Below, one piece after another: positions 5,581 through 60,094 of a stretch of DNA of 64,000 bases. The first letter of the stretch is position 1. Every line of letters starts with the position of its first letter. Source of the stretch: Echinarachnius parma. Its lineage: Eukaryota; Echinodermata; Echinoidea; Clypeasteroida; Echinarachniidae. The stretch is taken from NCBI GenBank assembly GCA_037951105.1, contig JBAMJV010001364.1, positions 124,001 to 188,000 on the forward strand, given 5' to 3'. The position numbers were made by a program, and so were the translations under genes. The notes beneath the pieces were generated by a model. The model had not been told where the DNA came from. It did no database searches and saw only the letters and a list, made by a program, of their open reading frames with translations.

Positions 5581-6675
5581 ATAGCGAGGACGCATCCTCG
5601 ACGTCCAAACAGTACTCACACGATCTTGCGTAATAATCGTTCGCACTTTCTTGTAACAAAACTGTCGAAACGAAAGTCGAGTTTGGATGAAATAACACAA
5701 AGCAAGATTTATTAACTGCCAAACAAAAAACACGAGCTCTCCGCATGAATCGCGCAGGTTTGCATGATAAGTGTTATCGTTCCTTGTTTGGATATATCGA
5801 AGTCTTGAAGGAATTTAGTTCACATTAATTTGTTGTCAGCGGTTGATTTGTTTTTTCCATCTCGACGCGGCGGTAGTTTTCGAATGAAAGACGATTACAA
5901 TCTACCTGAATTCTGTTTTTCACAAACTGCACACAAGCACACTTCGTCTTCGCATAATTATACATCCATTGATATACTGCAGTCTACATATCATCGAGAA
6001 AATGTTAATGGGGGTTTTTTTTTTTACTACATTCAAATGAAAATCGATTTTGAATACAAATCGCATCCAACCTGTCTAAGACGAGTGTATTCTGCCAACG
6101 ATAAATCTATCAAATCGCAATCACTGACTTGCATAACATAAATATCATTTCATACGAAATAATTACATCTGGAGAAAATATTTAGTCTTCTGAATAATTA
6201 TTCACCACCTTTATCCACCTCGAAAAGAGAAATAAATCGAGTCCAAATAAAAATATCATCCAAGAAGATTGCCCTTTACCAATGCGATGCGTCTACATGG
6301 AATCGCATCGCTGCAATCACCAACTGTTTTTGTTTGTATGTCTTCGAACGAATTGTTAACACGTCTTTTTATATTTTCTCCAGCGAGTATAATTACGGAT
6401 GTATATCTCGTTAAAACTTCGTATTGGTTGTCTTCCCGAGATGAAATAGCTCCTGGGTATTGATATTCCCGTACCATAGATAATACGCGCTTCCACCTGA
6501 GTGCAGTAAGTAACGGGTTAATTATATACGTACGTACGTTTACGTAATACTTGTTGCGCGTCGCACCGATCGAGTGGAGCTACAGTACGTAACTTTACGG
6601 CACACGCGTGCTCGCTGGTGTGACAGGGATAAGTGTCCAGTTAGGGATAATTGGCAGTGACGTCTTTCGGACAGT
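5581..6675. other. Interval without recognised features
   Basis: AT-rich sequence. Short open frames at 5830-6141 and 6256-6477 show no domain, splice support or compositional bias. No repeat structure was recognised. Confidence 0.4.
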
Positions 6676-6679
6676 TTAA

Positions 6680-7220
6680 AGGGATAGTTGAGTTCTGGTA
6701 AAGAGAGTACATTTTTTGTCAAACTGAATTCTAGTAAGCAAAACCTGCACCATTACATTACAAACTAATAGTTATAACTCCACCATGCTCAAAAGAAATA
6801 CAAAATTACAAATAACTAAGTATATAAAAAGCCTGTTATCATTCAAAAAGAGCCGTCAAAACTCAAGAGGGCGCTCTCTGAACACTCATCGGTTTCAACC
6901 ATTTGAAATAAAATTTTGTGAATGCGATGTTATGTTGAAATAGTGATTAGATAGAGAGATTATCAACCACTATTTAAAAACCACTTTTGTACATTTTTGA
7001 AAAGAGGAAGCATTTAAAAAAAATTGTATAATAATTGTGGGGCCCCACATTTATTACGAATGGTTATGTTTATGGATATTTCAGCCATTTCTGAACCGAT
7101 TTTGATCAAATAAAGTTCATTAAAATTGTATGCTCTTTCGAATTTGACACTCAGTTTTTCATTATCTCACGAAAAAATTATTTTGAGTAGCGCCCTCTAT
7201 ACCAAAACTCAACTATCCCT
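6680..7220. mobile_element. MITE family A, intact copy with TTAA duplication
   Basis: It starts AGGGATAGTTGAGTTCTGG and ends CCAAAACTCAACTATCCCT, near-perfect inverted termini flanked by TTAA at 6676-6679 and 7221-7224. TTAA targets are the piggyBac hallmark. Relatives lie at 8238-8260 plus 13608-14121, 22075-22603, 30065-30267, 34925-35127, 44712-45655 and 63973 onward. Non-coding. Confidence 0.85.
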
Positions 7221-7224
7221 TTAA

Positions 7225-13590: not shown

Positions 13591-13607
13591 GGGCCCATGG
13601 ACTAAGA

Positions 13608-14121
13608 GAGGGCGCTAGACTACTTATTTTTTTGTGAGGTAATGAAAAACTGAGTGTAAAATTTGAAAGAGCATAATATTTAAATAATAAAATCATCTTT
13701 GTTTGATCAAAATCGGTTCAGAGACGGTTGAAACATCCATAAATATAACAATTTGTAATAAAGCTGGGGCCCTAGGTTTATTAGAGAATTTTGAACCAGC
13801 CGTAAAAAATTCAAAAAAATGCTTCCTCTTTTCAAAAAGTTACAAAAAAGGTATTTAAATAGTTGTTGGTTATTTCTCTATCTAATCACTACTATTTCAA
13901 CAAAGCATCACATGCACAGTATTTTATTCAAAATGGTTAAAACCGATGAGTGTTTAGAGAGCGCCCTCTTACGTTTTAACGGCTCTTTTTGAATGATAAC
14001 ATGATCTTTACTACGTCATTTGTAATTTTGTGTTCCTTTCTAGTTATAACTATTAGTTTGTAATGTAATGATGCAGGTTTTGGTTACTAAAATTCAGTTT
14101 CACCAGAACTCAACTATCCCT
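13608..14121. mobile_element. Right part of the split family A MITE
   Basis: It resumes with GAGGGCGCTAGAC and ends CAACTATCCCT followed by TTAA (14122-14125). It contains the family body: GAGGTAATGAAAAACTGAGTG, AATCGGTTCAGAGACGG and GAGAGCGCCCTCTT. The same TTAA also flanks the next element. Confidence 0.8.
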
Positions 14122-14125
14122 TTAA

Positions 14126-14517
14126 AGTGATCCATTAACTTTATATTTTCACCCAAAGTAATGTTTTATACCAATTTCATTGTACGATTCTTGAGAATTT
14201 TATGCGAGAATTTCATAGAAAAGGAATAAAGTTTAACTAGTGAAAACAGAGACAATCAATGTATGATTTGATCCTAATCGTTCGCGTGAAGTATCCGAAT
14301 TCAGATACTATGGACGATTGAGTATCCGAATTCAGATACTCTTGACTACGGTCAGGAAACTGTCTATAGACGCTCTCAAAATGAATCTTAAATATATCCA
14401 TCATTATGGAGAAATTTAAGCAATCAAAACCCATTTCATTCTGTTATAAGCCAACAATTTATAAGGTACAAGAGCTGAGTGATTCTGGTTGAAATTGTAC
14501 AAAGTTAATGGATCACT
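14126..14517. mobile_element. MITE family F, copy 1
   Basis: The ends are AGTGATCCATTAAC and GTTAATGGATCACT, flanked by TTAA at 14122-14125 and 14518-14521. It abuts the family A copy and shares its TTAA. A second copy lies at 24343-24806. Non-coding. Confidence 0.85.
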
Positions 14518-14521
14518 TTAA

Positions 14522-16417
14522 AATGATAAAAAATGAACAAAGAAAATTGGGTTTCCCCGTGAATTGTCTTTGTTAACTTTTCATTTTTATAAAACGGCTC
14601 CGGTATATTCAGTAACGTGATTGGATAATACTGACCACGTAGGCATTGATTACTTTTCACCAACTGCACCACCGTGCCGATACTGCGCAACCACCGTGCC
14701 GATACCGCGCAACCATCGTGCCGAAGCTGTGTGCAACCCCGTGACGTCACAATGCTAATTGTTTACATAGTTCTACGAAGACAAACTTGCGAAAGTGAAG
14801 AAAAAAAAGATGTAAAATGCTTCGTTTTGTAAATTATCTGTTCTGTAGTAAATAAATCGTAGCAGTTTCGTAAATTATATGGTATGTGGTTTGATATTGG
14901 TAAGTTTTGGAATGGAAATGCATACAATTCTTTGATAATTCTCACTTTTATGGGAAAATCTTCGGCAATATCCCATCAACTGCATTTGATCTGCAGAGTC
15001 AAATTAAATAATGTTGCAAAAGCTGCAATTAAATTGTTATAAAATGTATGTAAATCAAATAAACTTAGATTAGGAATTTATCAAATAAAGTTATTAAGGA
15101 CGTGTCCCGCTTTTCCTATTGGGCCAAATCGATGATGTTGCGTAGAACTCTCGTTGGCGGCGCTATAGGGGGATAAACAATCGTGTTAACACAGGGTATA
15201 CAGTTGAGGATCTGAAATAGGAAAGGACATGTTGAGGGGGTACTCTTATCACTGTAATGACTGTTTGCTTTTTCTTTTTTTAGAAATTAAGGTTTCTAAA
15301 ACGGGATTCTAGAGCGTTCAAAGGTATGCAACTGAATAGTTGCAAGCTACGAAAAATCGGAGAAAGAAATGTTACCCGTTATGTTACCATTATAAATGTT
15401 TAAGCCCCCCCCCCCCTTGTAGCAACGCCGTCTGTACGCCAATGGTTTACAATGACGGGCAATCATTCCAAAATAATACATTGCCCCCCCCCCCCCCCCC
15501 CTCCCCTGCCCCTCTCTAGATTCTCGAGCTTTGTGGTCCAGAGGTTACGGTGTCTGGAAGGTATTCAGAAGAATGTGGGTCCGATACCCCAACAAAATGC
15601 GCTTGTGATATGTATTTTGTATTATTTATCGCGACTCAAACGAAACTGAATGTTTTAACCTATATACAGGTACAATAACAGCATATAAATGAGAACAAAA
15701 ATGGTGACATTCAAAAGGCAGGAACTTGAACCAACAGGTAAAATACCATTATATTATCTATAAAAAAAGAAAAATTTGACTTACAAACAATACATCATTC
15801 CACTATGTTCCGACCGTGGCTCTCAAACGAAAGGTTAGCATTTTCCCAAAGGAGGCGGCCATTTCTTAACTCCTGCAGTATCGGTGAGGCAAAATATGTA
15901 CAGCAGTTGGCACACACAATGTATAGTCTATGGGGGTTGACCGCCATATATCTGGTATGTGACGACTGTTTAGGACATTGCTCGACCATCTGTTTGCCTC
16001 TTCTATTGACGTCTCAGTGGAAATGGCGAAATAAAGAAAGCAGTATGATTCCATGAGTTGCAGACAACTTAATCTCACTAACGCAACAACAAAAAACAAA
16101 AAATACATTACAAAACAAAAACGCGGGGGATCACCGCGCGCGGAGATCTAGATAATTCAATCTAACTTTACTGTTGAACACGAACTTCAGTGCACATAAT
16201 CCCAAGAGATCTGAATACGTTCGAATTAGTATTCTACAGCAATTTGAATCGGAGTTCAAAATCACCTCCCTACGGCCGACGAGAAGGGTTGGTTACACGC
16301 CGTGGGAGTGGCTTAACCCTTCCATGCAGCAGTCATCGAGCAAATAACCCATAATGCATCTGTGCATTTACTGCATCGTCTGCACGCATGCTTTAAGTTC
16401 GCATGGTAAGACAATGG
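14522..16417. other. Interval with C-runs and a possible SINE, no gene seen
   Basis: It holds C-runs at about 15405-15416 and 15485-15502. At 15530-15600 the plus strand carries an A-box-like TGGTCCAGAGGTTACGG and a B-box-like GGGTCCGATACCCC, perhaps a decayed tRNA-derived SINE. Open frames near 15800-16100 have no recognisable content. Confidence 0.4.
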
Positions 16418-22074: not shown

Positions 22075-22603
22075 AGATAGTTTTGGTATAGAGGGCGCTG
22101 CACGAAGTCATTTTTTTGTGAGGTAATGAAAGACTGAGTGTCAAATTTGAAAGAGCATACAGAATAAATTTTATTTGAAAAAAATTGGTTCAACTGCTGA
22201 AATATCAATAAATATATTCGATCGGAATAAACATGATAAACTTGGGACCCCATAATTATTTGATGATTTAAGAAAAACAAAAAATTGCTTACACTTTTCA
22301 AAAATGTACAAAAGATGTTTATAAATAGTTTTTTGATGATCTCTCTATTAAATCATTATTTTAATAAAAAATCACATCACATTTTTAATTTAAAAATGGT
22401 TGAAAGCAATTAGTTTTTAGAAAGCGCCCTTTTGAGTTTTAACGGCTCTTTTTTATGATTACAGGCTTTTTACTTAGTCATTTGTAATTGTTCATACCTT
22501 TCGAGCATGGTGGAGCTATAACTATTAGTATGGTGCAGGTTTTGGTTCCTAAAATTCAGTTTAACCAAAACTGTACTCTCTTTACCAAAACTCAACTATC
22601 CCT
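22075..22603. mobile_element. MITE family A, copy 3
   Basis: The left end is worn (AGATAGTTTTGGTATAG), followed by GAGGGCGCTGCACGAAG. The right end CAAAACTCAACTATCCCT is followed by TTAA (22604-22607). The body matches the other copies. Confidence 0.75.
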
Positions 22604-22609
22604 TTAAGT

Positions 22610-25210: not shown

Positions 25211-27450
25211 TTCCATTAAGGCAACTTCTTCTTGCGTATGAGGCAGCGCAGCTTCTACGCAACATCACGCAAATTGTGTAGCCAATTAACACTGTCGGGG
25301 TCCAAGTTGTTTACATCTGGGTTTGGGTGGCCAGGTGGGCGAAGGATTGGGCACTCTTTAATGATGTGGGAGGCAGTCTGCTCGAGTGCTCCACATGTGC
25401 AAGCCGGAGAAGGTCTGAGCGGTGCATGTTGGCGTTAAACCTGCCGACCCCTGTGCGGAGCCTGTTGAGGGTGACCCAATCCTTTCGGGGTAGATCCGCG
25501 CCTGGTGGTAGTTTTGTGTTTGGGGTCACTCATGCGGTGAGGGTGTTGTGGGTGCCTTCCCGCAAGGTGTCAGCATGGCGACTGAACGGTCTGCGTGAAC
25601 GTAGGCGTTGGCGGCCCGGTTGTGTGTTCTGGGTGGTGCGGTGTAGAGGGTGTGTACGGTCTTGGAGGGCCTTGTTAACTAGTTGTTGAGTATAATGTTC
25701 TCTGCGGAGGGCGGGGGGTGCGATACCAGCGAGCACTGGTAAGAGGTCAGTTGGTGTGGGTCTGAGGCATCCTGTGATGATCCGCATAGTCTCGTTTATG
25801 GTGGTGTCCAATTTGGGAGTGTGTGAGCTGCGGCACCATGCAGGGGCAGCATACTCGGCAGCACTGTAGACTAGTGCGAGTGCGCCAGTACGAAGCGTGG
25901 GAGTTTTAGCACCCCAGGTGGTGCCCGCAAGGCGGCGGAGTAGGTTGTTCCTAGATGAAACTTTGGCTCAGAGTGAATCTAGGTGTGGTTTGAAGGTCAG
26001 CTGTCTGTCTAGCTTTACTCCAAGGTATGTAATTGGGGGTGGGGGTTTAGGGCAGTGGGTTCCCGTTGACTTTGACCGTGAGCTGGCGGTTTGCTTCTTT
26101 GGTTTTGAGGTGGAAGGCAGTTGCAGTTGTTTTTGCAGCGCTCAGCTTTAGTATCCAGGTCTTCAGGTAGTTCGCGATCTTAGCCATGTCAGATGTTAGG
26201 ACGTCTTCAATTTTTGACCAGATTTTGTCCGAGTGGAAGAGAGCAAGGTCGTCTGCGTAGCCGTACTGTCGTGCGGCAGTCTTGGGCATATCACTGATGT
26301 AAATGTTGAAGAGCGTTGGTGCCATGACTGAACCTTGGGGAGTCCGTTTCTGAGACGTCGGGGGCGACTGGACTGTCCGTCGCTGGTCTTCAGGACAAAG
26401 CTGCGGTTAGATAGGATGTTGGTAATAAATCCTACTAGGTGGCGGTCTGGTACCATCTGGAGGAGCTTCAGGGGGAGTTCCTGGTGCCACACGGTGTCGT
26501 CGGCTGCAGTTAGGTCGACCAGGATGGCACCAGCCTTGTGGCCTCTCTCAAAGCTGCTCTCGATGTCATTGGTGAGCAAGACTACTTGTTGGACGGTGCT
26601 GCGACCGTCAGGAAGTTGGGGGTCGACGATCGGTTCCAGCCGGGCTAGGAGGAGTCTTTCGAGTATGCAGAGGGATGCAGAGGAGAGAGATTGGTCTGTA
26701 GTTCTTGGGGTTGTCTAAGGGCTTGTTGGGCTTGGGTAATGCGATGATGGTTGCTTTGCGCCATATCTTGGGGATGGACTGGTGGGTGAGGCAGGATGAG
26801 AAAAGTAGGCGGAGCCATTCCAGACATTTTGGTCCGCAGTGCAGTAGGAACTCGGGAGGCAGGTTGTCTGGTCCTTGAGCCTTTCCACTTTTCAAATGTT
26901 TGATGGCAGTGGCGATCTCATCGGGAGTGAAGGGTGATGACAAGAGTCCATCCACTCCTGGGGCCTGCCAGAGTTTGGTGGTTTCTTGTTTGATGTGACG
27001 AGTGTGGTTCTTGTCTGCGTCTTTGAAGCGGCCGTTCTCGAGAAGCTGTTCCGCGATTGAGTTAGCGGTCACGGGGCATTGTTTGGCTTGGGACTTCTGC
27101 CGGTGAGGCGATTGAGCGTTTTCCAGGCCAGTCTGCTGGAGTGGGTGAAGTCGATTCCTAGAACTGTCTCCTCCCATCTCTCTCTGCGTTTGTTGTCTAG
27201 GCAGGCAGTTAGAAGGGTTGCCTTAGAGGCTGCTTCATCGCCGCGTTCGGCCTCGAGGAAGTCGTTGTAGAGGTCGTTACATTCATCGTCCCACGAGGGG
27301 ATGTAGCAGCGGCGGTGGCACGTGGGATGGAGCTCTTGGCTGCTGTGGTGAGGAGGTTGCGGAAGGATGTGTACGCTTGGTCCAGGTTAGAGGAGGATGG
27401 TAAGGGTAGGTTATCTACGTCTTGGCAACGATTACGTTGGTTATGCGGTT
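25211..27450 (-). pseudogene. 5'-truncated, frameshifted non-LTR retrotransposon (RT domain)
   Basis: Minus-strand coding pieces in shifting frames follow the order of a LINE ORF2. The linker with WDDECNDLYNDFLEAE lies near 27280. The fingers with GKAQGPDNLPPEFL and WRKATIIALPKPNKPLDNPK, then NYRPISLL, lie at about 26700-26900. The palm has LVDLTAADDTVWH at about 26500, and the catalytic YADDLALFHSD at about 26240. The C-terminal tail has [19 protein letters not shown] at about 25440-25500. Several frameshifts separate these blocks, and one block has an Ala-Asp-Asp in place of the usual Ala-Tyr-Asp. No upstream endonuclease is present, so it is 5'-truncated and dead. It is jockey-like by overall pattern, but the clade is uncertain. 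Its GC content is clearly above the flanks, and it splits a tandem repeat unit. Confidence 0.85.
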
Positions 27451-42185: not shown

Positions 42186-42279
42186 AGATGATGATGATAA
42201 TGATGGTGAGGTTGATGATGATGGAGGTGATGATGATGAAGATGATGATGGAGGTGATGGTGACGATGATGAAGATGAC

Positions 42280-42345
<66 letters not shown>

Positions 42346-42346
42346 A

Positions 42347-42382
<36 letters not shown>

Positions 42383-42545
42383 GCGTTGATGATGATGACG
42401 ATGGTGGTGGTGTTGATGATGATGGTGTTGATGATGATGATGACGATGGTGGTGATGATGATGGTTGTGATGATGAGGAGAAGGAGGAGGATTATAATGG
42501 TGATGATGATGATGCTGATGACCATTCATTTCCAACAGCATTATC
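42186..42545. repeat. GAT trinucleotide microsatellite
   Basis: About 350 bp of mostly GAT triplets with scattered AAT, GGT and GTT interruptions. The open frames of over 100 codons on both strands (poly-His, poly-Met/Ile) are products of the repeat. Confidence 0.95.
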
Positions 42546-44434: not shown

Positions 44435-44711
44435 TTAATTGGAGCTGCGTGGGCATAGACCGATATATTGCTACTTTTATCTACATTCATATCTAACTGT
44501 ATGTTATGATTATTGTATAGAGAAACGTTTAGCCATGTGTTCCGAATCAGGAATGTAACCTACATACCTGGATTAAATCAATTATGAACCGGTAGCACAC
44601 TATATTTACTTTGTATCACAATGTTCTTAGGGTCTTTCATGCGAGTGATTTATATTTAACCGCTTGATTAATATTTTGGACTACGCGGTCTACGTTCAGA
44701 ATAAAGCTTAA

Positions 44712-45655
44712 AGGGGTAGTTCAGTTTTGGTAGAGAGGGCGCTGCACAACACAATTTTCTTGTGAGGTAATGAACCACTGAGTGTCGAATTTGAAAGAAC
44801 ATGCAATTTTAATGACAGAATAAACTTTATTTGGTCAAAATCGGTTCAGAAATGGCTGAAATATCAATAAATATATCCGATCGTAATTAATTTGGGCCCC
44901 AAATTGATTCGATGATTTTAAAAAATAAAATAAAAATGCTTACACTTTTTCAAACATTTTCAAAAGCGGTTTTTAAATAGTTGTTGATGATCTCTTTATT
45001 TAATCATTATTTCAACAAAACATCACATGCATAATTTTGTCTGAAAAATGGTTGAAACCAATGCCTTTTTAGAGAGCGCACTCTTGTGTTTGAATGGCTC
45101 TTTTTGAATGATAACAGGCTTTTTACTTAGTCGTTTGTAATTTTGTATACCTTTCGAGCATGGTGGAGTTATAACTATTAGTTTGTAATGTTACTGTGCA
45201 GGTTTTGGTTACTAAAGTTCAGCCTTACCAGTATAGAGGGCGCTGCACGAAATAATTTTGCAGTGAGGTAATGAAAAACTGAGTGTAAAATTTGAAAGAG
45301 CATACAATTTTAATGGCAGAATAAATTTTATTTAATCAAAATCGGTTCAGAAACGGCTGAAATATCAATAAATATATCCGCTCGTAATAAATCTTTGGCC
45401 CAGATTTATTCGATGATTTGTTTACAAAAATGTAAAAAATGCCTACACTTTTTCAAACATTTTCAAGAGAGGTTTTTAAATAGTTGTTGATGATCTCTCT
45501 ATAATTTGTTATGAAAAATGGTTGAAATCAATGTATTTTAGAGAGCGCCCTCTAGAGTTGTAATGGCTCTTTTTTAATGATAACAGGCTTTTTAATTAGT
45601 CGTTTGTAATTGTCTATACCTTTCGAGCATGGTGGAGTTATAACTATTAGTTTCC
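44712..45655. mobile_element. Two family A MITEs head to tail
   Basis: TTAA (44708-44711) is followed by AGGGGTAGTTCAGTTTTGG, and the first copy runs to about 45230. A second body starts at about 45232 with AGTATAGAGGGCGCTGCACG and is cut near 45655 at TAACTATTAGTTT. They differ from each other and lie in the same orientation. Confidence 0.75.
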
Positions 45656-46660: not shown

Positions 46661-47215
46661 TAGCTTCGTGGCTGACTTAATACATCTTACCACAAGCTGG
46701 CGCAATTATAGTATCGTGTACGGTAGGGCGAATGAGATAGTGACCAGAGACGATGGTCAGCAGGTCAGTGAGCTATGCAAATAAACTACGGTTCGGTGGG
46801 GGTAATTCGATGACTGCGCGACCTGTATACACGGCTGCACAGCCATTGCGCGTTGTATAACCGCAGCTAAATTGAAGTCGTCGCATTTTGTCGTCGATGC
46901 ACTTACAAACACGATGCCAATCGGCAATAGCGATCATTACCATACCATCCGCGTAATATAAATATTGATATTTATTAAAACCTGAGTAGTTTCGCAACCT
47001 GTTATATCTAAAACGTGACCCCCAGCTGTTCTCTTGTGATATCTATTAGTATATGTATGTCTGTGACTTCTAATGATGCACCAATGGTGTAGAAAAGACT
47101 AACACAGGATTTGGATAGATTAGGAATAGGAAGTTTACTGGATGAAAGACCCAGTCTGTCCGGGTACACGCTCATTAACAAGTTATATAGCTTACATAAC
47201 CAGCTACTGGCACAC
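46661..47215. other. Interval without recognised features
   Basis: No exon, RNA gene or repeat end recognised. Confidence 0.4.
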
Positions 47216-47219
47216 AGCA

Positions 47220-49027
47220 GGGCAATTCCAAGCAAACATTGACATAAGCACCCATTTTTCAAATTTGTCGAATCATAACATATTTGGTATCAAATTAAAG
47301 CTTAAAGATTAAACTATTCAGAAATGTATTTTGTTCAAAAAATTTGTTGGCGTAAACTATTATTTCATAGGAATTAATTAGCATAAATTAATTTTCAATT
47401 ATTTTCACAAAATATACTTGTAAATATTAAGCTTAAAAGAGCTGCAAAAATAGGTTTTCATAAAATTTTCTTTCAGTGTTGGTAAGAACATTACTTCAAT
47501 TTATCAGATAAATATCTATTTCGGCATTTTCGCTCTTTGTTCTGCTTCAGTGACTGTTTCATTTATAGTCATCTATATGTCACGCTGTTACCCTAAAAAC
47601 AGGTATTTTTAATATTTCTGGAAAAATATGAATGGGAATGAAATTATTTTTTGTTTCTTCTTCATTCACCCATAGGGCTATATTATGGATGCTAAATAGC
47701 AGCATTATCTTTTACCACTAATTAATCTAAGCAATATCAATTTGGTCACGCTGTTACTTTTTGGGTAACAGCGTGACGCAACCTACTTTTTTTTTGCAAT
47801 ATCTCAAGAATCGTTGGATGGATTCTGTTCAAACTTTGTACAAGACATGTATTCAGAGGTATGGATTATCTGATACATTTTGGGGCCATGAGGTCAAAGG
47901 TCAAAGGTCACAGCTAATTAATATGCAAAAAATATATTATTCTCAAGATATTTCAAGAATCCTTGAAGGATGACATGATAATTAATACTGGTATGCGTTC
48001 AGTGAAGTAGATGACCTGATTATAGAATTTGGTCATGTGGTCAAAGGTCAACAGGTCAAATTATTGTAGTTTATTTTTTATCTCACAAAAAAATGCCAGA
48101 ATTAATGTTAGAAAGAGTACTGTAGATAAAAGAAAATTCTATGAAAATGTTTGGAGGACAGGTCAAAGGTCACTCGGATAATAACCAATTCAAACACAAA
48201 AACTTACTGACATTGAAATCATGTTACATGAATCAAATCACTTGTAGATATGCACTGTGCCACATAAAATTAAACATTTGTATGCTAATTTGAGAAATAA
48301 GGTCAAAGGTCAGATGTCAAAGGTCTAATATTTCATTGTTGCAATTAAGTTTGTATTTTGGGTTTGATATTTGATGGTTCCTCAAACTAAATTCTGAAAA
48401 AGATGAGAATTTCAGTTTTGTCCAAAAACATTTTTTATCAATAGAGGGCGCTAGGCTGCAAATTTGTGTCATGCGAACCATCATTTCAGAGCATCTGGGT
48501 TATATTACCCATTCATCTAGTTCTGTATAGATTCTGGATGACTACATCAAAATTATATAATCTTATTCATCTCATCAATATCTCCCATATATAACATGTA
48601 CAATTCAGAGGTCACGCTGTTACCGTCACGCTGTTACCGTGCACAGATACGTTTATGATATCATATTTACTATGAACATTGGATTTTTTCTACTTTTTTT
48701 TTGGGATGTTCTAGCTTGATGTCTAGTACAAAGAATCAATGTGACAAAATTGCAAAATGTTCCTGTAGTTCACAGAGTTTGCTTAGTTTCTTACCATGTA
48801 AGAAACCCATGTCTTTTTGCCGTCACGCTGTTACCGCAGATATTGATATTCATAATTCATAATTTAGTGGGAATTTTGATTTTCTTTCCTATTGTAAATA
48901 ATTAGTAGGATAGTGGTAACAGATGCATATCAAAATTTGGTTCTGGACATTTTTATTTTGTGAGTTATTTAGACTTTCATCGTGAGAAACACCCTCCTAC
49001 CGTCACGCTGTTACCTTGGAATTGCCC
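47220..49027. mobile_element. Inverted-repeat element E1 with nuclear-receptor-like DR1 arrays
   Basis: The ends are GGGCAATTCCAAG and CTTGGAATTGCCC, flanked by AGCA (47216-47219 and 49028-49031). The interior has about six copies of GTCACGCTGTTACC or its complement, including a palindromic pair at 47747-47776. It also has four clusters of AGGTCA half-sites spaced by one base (47892, 48046, 48160, 48300). No transposase ORF. The inverted relative E2 is at 56585-58597. Confidence 0.85.
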
Positions 49028-49446
49028 AGCAGATCTAATATACAGCACTGTTGGTACAATTTTTGCATTAATTACTAATCTTACTATAAAACATCTTTCA
49101 TTCTTTCTACCATATATACAATGTAGTTCAAATAGGAACTAATATTACACAATATATATATATGAGTAAAAATTACATTTAATGCAAGCAAATCTAACAA
49201 ACTAATTAACTTTAACCAAGTTTATAGAAAGAAGGTTTTTGACCCACTCATATTCAGATCAACATGCACTCGTGATGCATTTGTTACAGATGTATTTTGG
49301 AAGTTATTTAAAATAAAAATGTTGTTGTTTTCTAGGAAGTAATGTTCATCAGGATACAAATTATGCTCAATGATTGAGCTATTTAAATTGCTCAATGTCC
49401 TGTCCTGTCCTGTGCCATCTTTAAACATGAATCATATGAAAATTAA

Positions 49447-56584: not shown

Positions 56585-58597
56585 GGGCAATTCCAAGCAA
56601 ACGCCGTGACGGTCAGAGGGTGTTTCTCACAATGAAAGTCCAAATAACTCATAAAATCTAAATATCTAGAACCAACTTTTTATATGCATCTGTAACCACT
56701 ATCCTACCAATAATTTACAATAGGCAAGAAAACCAAAATTCCCAATAAATTATTAATTATGAATATCAATATCTGCCGTAACGCCGTGACGGCAAAAAGA
56801 CATGGGTTTCTTACATGCTAAGAAACTAAGTAAACTCTGTGAACTACAGGAACATTTTGCCCTTTTGTCACATTGATTCTTTGTACTAGACATCAAGCTA
56901 GAACATCCAAATAAAAATGTAGAAAAAATCCAATGCTCATAGTAAATATGATATCATAAATGTATCTATGCACTGTAACGCCGTGACTGTAACGCTGTGA
57001 CCTCTGAATTGTACATGTTATATATATGGGAGATATTAAAGAGATGAATAATATGATATAATTTTAATGTAGTGATCAAGAATCAATAAAGAACTAGATG
57101 AATGGGTGATATAACCAAGATGCTAATAAATGATCATCCGCATGACACAAATTTGCAGCACAGCGCCCTCTATTGATCAAAAAAAAATTTAGGACATAAT
57201 TGAAATTCTTATCTATTTCAGAAGTTAGTTAATGGAACCATCAAATATTAAAACCAAAATACAAATACTTAAATGTAACAATGAAATATGAGACCTTTGA
57301 CATCTGACCTTTGACCTTGTTTCTCAAAATAACATACAAATGTTTAATTTTTGGTCTGCACAATGCATATTTGCAAGTGATTTGTTTCATGTAACATGAT
57401 TTCAGAGTTAGTAAATGTTTGTTTTTGAATTGGTAATTATCCGAGTGACCTTTGACCTGTGCCCCAAACAGTTTCAGAAAATTGTCTTTTACCTACAGTA
57501 CTCTTTCTAACATTGATTCTGGAACTTAATTGTGAGAACAAAAAAAAACAACAATATTTTGACCTGTTGACCTATGACCTCCCATGACCCCATTCCCTAA
57601 TCAGGTCATATACTTCACTGGATGCATACCAGTATTATTATGTTATCCTTCAAGGATTCTCAAACTATCTTGATAATAATATAATTTTTGCATATATTGT
57701 TAGCGTTGTGACCTTTGACCTTTGACCTCATGGACCAAAATCATATCCAATAATCCGTACCTCTAAATACATGGATTGTACAAAGTTTGAACGAAATCCA
57801 TCCAACGATTCTTGAGATATTGCAAAAAAAAGAACACTGATGTACAGATGCACATACAGGCAGACGGACATACAACCCATACACATACATGACTCGGGTA
57901 ACTTTGAGATGGAAACATTTTCAACTGACCCTATTCATATAATTATAGCATGAGCAATGCCCAAGCATACCTACAAAAAATATCTTACATATATGTAAGA
58001 TGTCTACTGTGTTATGTCAATGGGAATCCAGTAGGTAGCGTCACGGCGTTACACAAAACGTAACGCCGTGACCAAATTGATATTGATTATATTAATAAGT
58101 GGTAAAAGATAATGCTGCTATTCAGCATGCATATTATAGCACTATGGGCTAATACAGAGAAAACAAAAAATTATTTCATTCCCATTCATATTTTTCCAGA
58201 AATATTAAAAATATATGTTTTTAGTGTAACGCCGTGACATATTAATGATTGTAAATGAGACAGTCACTGAAGCGGAACGAAGAGCGAAAATGACGAAATT
58301 GATATTTATCTGAAAAATTGAAGCAATGATCCTATCAACACTGAAATAAAATTTTATGAAAACTCCTTTTCGCAGTTCTTTTATGCTTAATATTTAATTG
58401 AATGTTTTGTGAAAATAACTGAAAATTAATTTATGCTATATATTAACAATAAAATAATAGTTAACAATTTTTTTTTTCAAAAACAAAATACATTTTTGGA
58501 AAGTTCAATCTTTTAGCTTTCATTTGATACCAAATTTCTTATGGTACAACGAATTTGAAAAATCAGTGGTTATGTCAATGTTTGCTTGGAATTGCCC
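56585..58597. mobile_element. Inverted-repeat element E2 with DR1 arrays, in a FAM124-like intron
   Basis: The ends are GGGCAATTCCAAGC and GCTTGGAATTGCCC, with TACA duplications (56581-56584, 58598-58601). It is inverted and diverged relative to E1. It carries GTAACGCCGTGAC motifs at about 56603, 56779, 56978, 58036 (palindromic pair) and 58228. TGACCTTTGACCT-type DR1 clusters lie at about 57293, 57448, 57560 and 57707. No transposase is present. Confidence 0.85.
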
Positions 58598-59330: not shown

Positions 59331-59387
59331 TTATTGAAGATTGTAATCAGCAGTTTAACGGTTTGTGAATCATATGTTTGTTTCCAG

Positions 59388-60094
59388 CCGCCACCCTGAC
59401 CAACCCTCCTCGCAGTCTGCTGGAGGTTTACGTCCCCAAGGACCAGGGGGCGATGGCCAGAGGCATCACCTCCTCCTTCCTCGGATCCTTCTCTGGTGCC
59501 TTCACGCACGCCGTCATCATGGAGGATGAGAATGTGTCTACCACCGCCATCCCTAGCGATGCCGTCCCCTCACTCGGAGCGGTCCTGTTCTTCACTCCCA
59601 GGACTCAGGCCCTAGCGCTGCAGGCCCAAGCAGCCTTGTCCGCACTCCCCTGGAAGGAGAAGCCCCTTCCAGAGGAAGTGTCCAATGTAGAGTTCGGCAC
59701 CAAGCTGTTTGTGCACTCCGAGCAGGCGTTGCCCTTCTGGGGGGTGCGGACGGGCGCCCCGGACTCCGGCGTGAGGCTGTTGCTCTTAGTCCAGGACCCC
59801 AGTAAGTTTGACGCCATGAACGAGTTCTATCAGCAGTTCACCGGAGTGACCGCCCTCGAGAACAAGTCTGCATCCAGCGCTCTGCGGTGCAGTACCTACA
59901 CACTTTCGTCTCGCTGCGAGTTCATGCTAGCGCACTACCCCGGCCTCAAGCCGTATACACTGGACTCGTTAGCCATTGGTTTCCATATCAGAAACTTGAA
60001 TAAGGCGGCGGGAGCCGAGCGCCTGAATGATGACCACTGGATGACACGGGACCCAGAAGGCAATAGAGTTGCGCTCTTCTCCGTCAGACGATAA
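59388..60094 (+). CDS. FAM124-like protein, last coding exon
   Basis: The exon completes residue 164 and encodes residues 165-398. The acceptor GTTTGTTTCCAG ends at 59387 and the stop is TAA at 60092-60094. All three junctions keep frame, giving 398 residues; vertebrate FAM124A/B are somewhat longer. Landmarks of the FAM124 (glyoxalase-like) domain are PSLGAVLFF (224-232), LPFWGVR (278-284), RLLLLVQD and FDAMNEFYQ (292-311), LDSLAIGFHIR (354-364), and HWMTRDPEGNRVALF (380-394). The last resembles the 'W.T.D..GN...L' ending of the family. No metal-binding or enzymatic residues can be claimed; the cellular role of FAM124 is poorly defined. The protein is probably cytosolic or nuclear. Coding sequence is GC-rich against AT-rich flanks. 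Confidence 0.75.

Follow-up and report, generated by a model that had tools for sequence, protein, structure and literature searches.

A seven-site motif differing in step, and conserved DR1 clusters, in two copies of a nonautonomous DNA transposon family

Two diverged copies of a nonautonomous DNA transposon

Two related elements, E1 and E2, lie in the window, i.e. the whole 64-kb stretch of DNA that was analysed. Their limits and terminal features are as follows:

47220..49027, plus strand: E1, nonautonomous TIR element of 1808 bp (from ends, alignment and frame scan)
47220..47232, plus strand: left TIR of E1, GGGCAATTCCAAG
49015..49027, minus strand: right TIR of E1, exact inverted GGGCAATTCCAAG
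47216..47219, plus strand: left target-site duplication of E1, AGCA (or CAGCA, 47215-47219)
49028..49031, plus strand: right target-site duplication of E1, AGCA
56585..58597, minus strand: E2, the other member of the pair, of 2013 bp, with TGTA/TGTA on both sides
57832..58029, minus strand: 198-nt segment of E2 that is missing from E1 (from alignment)

The same 13-nt GGGCAATTCCAAG was found at both ends of both copies; E1 has a perfect copy of it at 47220 and a perfect inverted one at 49015, as expected from the proposal of an earlier sequence-only reading of this DNA that the element is bounded by TIRs. The flanks, AGCA/AGCA in E1 and TGTA/TGTA in E2, point to a 4-bp duplication, but since in both copies a C precedes the left duplication and also closes the right TIR, the duplication can equally be read as one of 5 bp (CAGCA, CTGTA), the ends then being unequal. 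Stop-to-stop frames reach at most 80 aa in E1 and 83 aa in E2, so that neither holds an intact transposase gene, and both combine TIRs, a flanking duplication and the lack of such a gene in the manner of nonautonomous cut-and-paste transposons. Pairwise alignment of E1 and E2 showed 1572 identical positions out of 1804 ungapped ones (87.1%). Because of the TIRs, the target-site duplications, the lack of a coding frame and the common body, both copies are assigned to one family of nonautonomous DNA transposons, in which they represent two diverged subfamilies, and that they form a transposon pair is nearly certain. The word CATTGACATAAC, which follows the left TIR of E2, is also located near the start of its 198-nt extra segment, and this segment may belong to an ancestral form that was longer.

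Several superfamilies were compared with these ends. Kolobok of the TTAA type, whose defining feature is a TTAA target-site duplication according to passages of PMC9587614, was rejected, the duplications being AGCA and TGTA. For KolobokP, the same passages describe RR..YY ends, a TIR of 11-18 bp, solo repeats with duplications of 3-5 bp, no strong target preference and a presence in 7 animal phyla. E1 and E2 share the RR..YY ends, the TIR length and the size of the duplication, but differ from KolobokP in having neither a long coding frame nor the long direct repeats (about 450 or 660 bp) that those passages report at the termini; when the two terminal stretches of these sizes were compared within each copy, the matches were short, the longest of 37 nt, and KolobokP was also discarded. 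The same was done with Chapaev, given in an excerpt of PMC4079192 as ending in 5'-CAC and GTG-3', the ends being here GGGC and GCCC, and with CACTA (En/Spm), since E1 and E2 have neither the CACTA ends nor the 3-bp duplication stated in part of PMC2613891. In the case of Sola2, for which an excerpt of PMC3627910 gives a 4-bp, AT-rich (AWWT) duplication, the length fits, but AGCA and TGTA are not AWWT, a preference known from three described families.

Relatives of E1 and E2 were sought in viral and prokaryote contigs by pattern scans (ends, 13-bp motif, DR1 run and repeat unit), which gave 3 loci. blastn of E1 and E2 against these loci returned 29 matches of 12-25 nt (best E 0.028), which were taken as chance because they are short and weak; since the scanned collections consist of viruses and prokaryotes, absence there tells little on animals.

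As for the surroundings, the window looks like animal DNA. Pfam matches were obtained for four of ten submitted frames (50 frames are listed in the window), corresponding to a rhodopsin-type receptor, a reverse transcriptase, FAM124 and an IGFBP domain, the last just above the cut-off. The FAM124 match lies in an exon-like frame at 59369-60094, and a reverse transcriptase remnant at 26047-26406, on the minus strand. Between 27931 and 37651 a 4861-bp segment is present twice, head to tail, with 99.94% identity, which reflects either an artefact of the assembly or duplication in very recent times. Copies of a dispersed repeat, each about 500 bp long and around 70-81% identical, occupy 6672-7224, 13605-14129, 22079-22607 and 44708-45653, and at 42187-42521 the trinucleotide GAT is repeated in an array of about 112 units (81% matches).

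The 13-bp motif and the DR1 clusters

Among the long words of E1, the commonest is GTCACGCTGTTAC and not a DR1 sequence; it is present in 7 copies, 3 within 560 nt of the left end and 4 within 420 nt of the right end (element positions 360, 526, 546, 1392, 1406, 1603 and 1783 of 1808). E2 carries the same seven sites in matching places; five are exact GTCACGGCGTTAC, and sites 4 and 7 differ further:

47579..47591, plus strand: E1 site 1, GTCACGCTGTTAC
47745..47757, plus strand: E1 site 2, left arm of an inverted pair
47765..47777, minus strand: E1 site 3, right arm of the inverted pair
48611..48623, plus strand: E1 site 4, first of a head-to-tail pair
48625..48637, plus strand: E1 site 5, second of the head-to-tail pair with site 4
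48822..48834, plus strand: E1 site 6
49002..49014, plus strand: E1 site 7, abutting the right TIR
58226..58238, minus strand: E2 site 1, GTCACGGCGTTAC
58060..58072, minus strand: E2 site 2, GTCACGGCGTTAC
58040..58052, plus strand: E2 site 3, inverted partner of site 2, GTCACGGCGTTAC
56989..57001, minus strand: E2 site 4, GTCACAGCGTTAC
56975..56987, minus strand: E2 site 5, GTCACGGCGTTAC
56778..56790, minus strand: E2 site 6, GTCACGGCGTTAC
56598..56610, minus strand: E2 site 7, GTCACGGCGTTTG, abutting the right TIR

With seven sites per copy, six in one orientation and one in the other, this is a subterminal array of the kind seen in CACTA elements. Elsewhere in the 64-kb window there is no exact GTCACGNNGTTAC, and a single-mismatch site was found at 14733. 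The motif shows partial self-complementarity, involving 8 of 13 positions in its E1 version and 10 of 13 in that of E2, which would suit a dimeric protein.

When the two copies are compared site by site, the seven sites differ in lockstep at positions 7 and 8. The former is C in E1 and G in E2, and the latter T in E1 and C in E2, in both cases at 7/7 sites, while position 14 differs at six of the seven (to A four times, to G twice). Among the remaining eleven core positions only 3 of 77 cells differ, two of which belong to site 7 and the third to site 4. Around the sites, each of the positions -8 to -1 and 15 to 19 differs at 0 to 2 of the seven, and the flanks within 15 nt differ at 12 of 155 positions. 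Outside the sites, C to G or its complement occurs at a rate of 1.7% and T to C or its complement at 3.3%. Using the substitution rates found in the rest of the element and treating the sites as independent, the probability of the two-base change at all seven is near 10^-22.7, a post hoc figure, given that the motif was picked after seeing it, that serves only to exclude independent neutral change. As a control, every 8-nt word with at least four locations in E1 (n=16) was followed in E2: a common change was found in 7 of the 8 that touch the motif and in 0 of the 8 others, a contrast weakened by the fact that the motif words overlap one another and that 6 of the 8 other words are DR1 words. 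This seven-site motif differing in step is a stronger result than the DR1 arrays described below.

The DR1 clusters are located in the middle of E1, and four are present in matching places in E2:

47889..47912, plus strand: E1 cluster 1, three half-sites; 0 of 24 positions differ in E2
48034..48058, plus strand: E1 cluster 2, TGGTCAAAGGTCA then ACAGGTCA; 2 of 25 aligned positions differ, plus 2 gap columns
48158..48173, plus strand: E1 cluster 3; 0 of 16 differ
48299..48326, plus strand: E1 cluster 4, with ATGTCAAAGGTCT; 0 of 28 differ
57709..57728, minus strand: E2 cluster 1
57568..57580, minus strand: E2 cluster 2, AGGTCATAGGTCA
57446..57458, minus strand: E2 cluster 3
57291..57317, minus strand: E2 cluster 4

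The arrangement is that of a DR1 sequence, in which two directly repeated RGGTCA half-sites are separated by one base. The sequence-only reading had reported four such clusters in E1, and all four are real; exact AGGTCAAAGGTCA is found at 47891 and 47898 (overlapping, in a single run of three half-sites), at 48160 and at 48300. The second cluster had been placed at 48046, where there is no perfect site: it is located at 48038 and reads TGGTCAAAGGTCA, which has one mismatch, followed by ACAGGTCA. A description as four perfect DR1 sites was discarded because this cluster is mismatched and differently placed. The claim that the density of DR1 sequences exceeds chance was borne out, since there are 5 GGTCA-N2-GGTCA pairs in E1 and 5 in E2 versus means of 0.004 and 0.003, respectively, and a maximum of 1, in 1000 dinucleotide shuffles of each.

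That reading also asked if the DR1 clusters are more conserved than the rest of the element. In the one pair of copies compared they are, with differences at 2 of 93 aligned positions in the clusters versus 34 of 200 in their 25-nt flanks (Fisher p about 1e-4), so that the DR1 blocks look constrained; outside the 13-bp motifs, the element differs at 209 of 1706 positions. Circular shifts of the cluster set were as conserved in 2 of 1706 cases, counting the unshifted one, and placing the four blocks independently gave a p of 0.0024. Both the cluster limits, which were set from the half-sites, and the 13-bp motif were chosen with the alignment already in view, so these probabilities do not come from a blind test. 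The single pair E1/E2 indicates that the DR1 clusters were under constraint in the lineage that gave rise to both copies. They are not uniquely conserved, however, since six longer stretches outside them, starting at 47604, 47788, 48587, 48704, 48752 and 48795, are identical over 29-46 nt, and the longest identical runs covering DR1 clusters are of 28, 27 and 25 nt. The suggestion that these are functional receptor sites is partly supported, the conservation of the clusters speaking for it and the six longer runs against. The arrays are real, exceed chance and are preserved in two copies, which makes the receptor interpretation possible, although unproven.

Possible readers of the sites

Both comparisons, that of the motif and that of the DR1 clusters, are between two copies, E1 and E2; no third copy, autonomous relative or transposase came up in the sequences covered. 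The best evidence that the element offers for a putative protein partner is the 13-bp motif and not the DR1 arrays. The sites correspond one to one, with eleven positions kept and two differing in step, which must reflect common selection by one reader. Most likely, the seven sites would be recognition sites of a DNA-binding protein, a transposase or a helper, that could be supplied in trans by an autonomous relative. The specificity of this protein would have shifted in one of the subfamilies, and its sites would have shifted along with it, in step; a reader belonging to the element family would explain why a single new form is fixed at all sites. We consider it probable that a protein of the element family reads the 13-bp sites. 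The centrally located DR1 clusters would also have been kept by selection while the lineage was active, and as they stayed unchanged while the other motif differed, the simplest reading would be that of a conserved host factor, for which receptors of the RXR/HNF4/COUP-TF type are the obvious candidates. For a host receptor reading these clusters our support is tentative, and short of an even chance. Taken as a whole, the explanation in which an element-family protein reads the 13-bp sites and a host factor the conserved DR1 clusters is the one towards which the present comparison leans slightly.

Other explanations of the lockstep were weighed. It could have arisen without selection, through gene conversion or template switching between sites, or through CpG decay. 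Position 8 of E2 is indeed the C of a CpG, and decay (from E2 to E1) could cover this position, but not position 7, a transversion at 7/7 sites; moreover, the motif contains another CpG, which has stayed intact in 7/7 E1 sites. Exchange between sites, for its part, would have to reach 13-bp sites in both orientations and up to 1.4 kb apart, with mutually unlike flanks that show the few differences between copies given above, both within 15 nt and at each of the 13 nearest offsets. An origin without selection is in our opinion very improbable. The 13-bp sites might instead be targets of a host repressor, e.g. a zinc-finger protein, the difference between copies then being an escape; sequence-specific host repressors of transposons exist in other animals. 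Any loss of the motif would allow escape, yet all seven sites share one alternative at positions 7 and 8, and a repressor would explain loss but not convergence on one form, which makes this explanation improbable, if less so than the previous one.

With respect to the DR1 array, it could be a by-product of a degenerate repeat inside the element, whose units, about 140 nt long, would contain AGGTCA direct repeats by accident; no receptor would then take part, and the element's own protein would still read the 13-bp sites. Several data are in line with this: GGTCA is strongly biased by strand, with 13 versus 1 in E1 and 14 versus 2 in E2 (two in each copy, in E1 of its 13, overlap the 13-bp motif), the E1 clusters are spaced by 147, 122 and 140 nt, and for two pairs of clusters (1 with 2, and 2 with 4) the 140-nt upstream stretches gave a better alignment than any of 200 shuffles. 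In addition, all DR1 clusters have the same orientation, which receptors would not require, and the E1 clusters may have arisen in part as duplicates of a unit about 140 nt long. However, only 2 of the 6 upstream-unit pairs beat their shuffles, and a neutral repeat would not leave the clusters so much less changed than their flanks. We give this by-product explanation serious weight, albeit below even. A different option is that the half-sites constitute a second recognition sequence of the element's own machinery, and not of a host receptor. Such sites can be repeated, conserved and directional, and the half-sites are all three, but they lie in the middle of the element, far from both ends, and do not differ where the 13-bp motif does, so that we see this option as unlikely.

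Returning to an element-family reader for the motif and a host factor for the DR1 clusters, a stricter version would define two separate sets of sites, one close to the ends, self-read and rewritten in step each time the protein of the family shifts its specificity, and another in the centre, host-read and fixed; the DR1 array could not change because the nuclear receptors of the animal do not. This version appears rather doubtful. If true, the activity of the element would be coupled to the hormone or lipid state of the host, and subfamilies would cease to share machinery. As the sequence-only reading proposed, E1 might also disperse hormone-responsive sites, or use host receptors to control its own mobility.

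A joint change of specificity in a selfish element and its protein, involving many sites at once, is hard to observe, and in E1 and E2 seven sites can be compared one to one in subfamilies that are still 87% identical. Should more copies be discovered, together with the autonomous partner, one could read directly in which order sites and protein changed, and the DR1 array would test whether elements tune themselves to host receptors.

Comparison with known systems

The relation between E1 and E2 is of a known kind, described in plants, and six literal strings (the TIR, both forms of the motif and a DR1 run among them) had no occurrence in the open-licence papers covered, where no description of the family was found with them; a search there on the coevolution of binding sites gave 0 papers.

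For the DR1 clusters, a parallel exists in Alu, the retrotransposed repeat of primates. Passages of PMC3252374 report HNF4 sites in Alu repeats, with binding shown by ChIP and arrays, and an excerpt of PMC1785376 describes retinoid-receptor sites in them. Similarly, E1 and E2 are mobile elements with candidate nuclear-receptor sites, known here from sequence alone.

VANC-type proteins are encoded by the element itself and act against silencing by removing methylation at their target motifs. In Arabidopsis VANDAL elements, according to parts of PMC5735166, many short VANC target motifs are present in noncoding regions and differ between subfamilies, coevolution with the protein of the element has been proposed, and the motifs are often in tandem, the formation of tandem repeats being the proposed route of change. 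E1 and E2 likewise have a repeated short noncoding motif that differs between subfamilies. Unlike in VANDAL, however, only two of the seven sites are in tandem and the others lie in unlike flanks; with only one tandem pair among the seven, tandem amplification does not serve as an explanation here.

The closest precedent for the lockstep motif, as far as passages of PMC2613891 describe it, are the soybean CACTA elements. These passages indicate that plant CACTA elements (Spm/En, soybean Tgm1 and Tgmt*) carry a short motif in both orientations near both ends, distributed asymmetrically, that the subterminal motif of Spm/En is bound by a protein encoded by the element, and that the consensus motifs of two soybean subfamilies differ at 6 positions, for which coevolution with the binding protein was raised. 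E1 and E2 resemble them in that a short motif recurs close to either end, in both orientations and asymmetrically between ends. They differ from CACTA elements in their GGG..CCC ends, their 4- or 5-bp duplication and their animal-like DNA, and from the soybean subfamilies in that E1 and E2 differ from each other at two to three positions, within sites that have a one-to-one correspondence.
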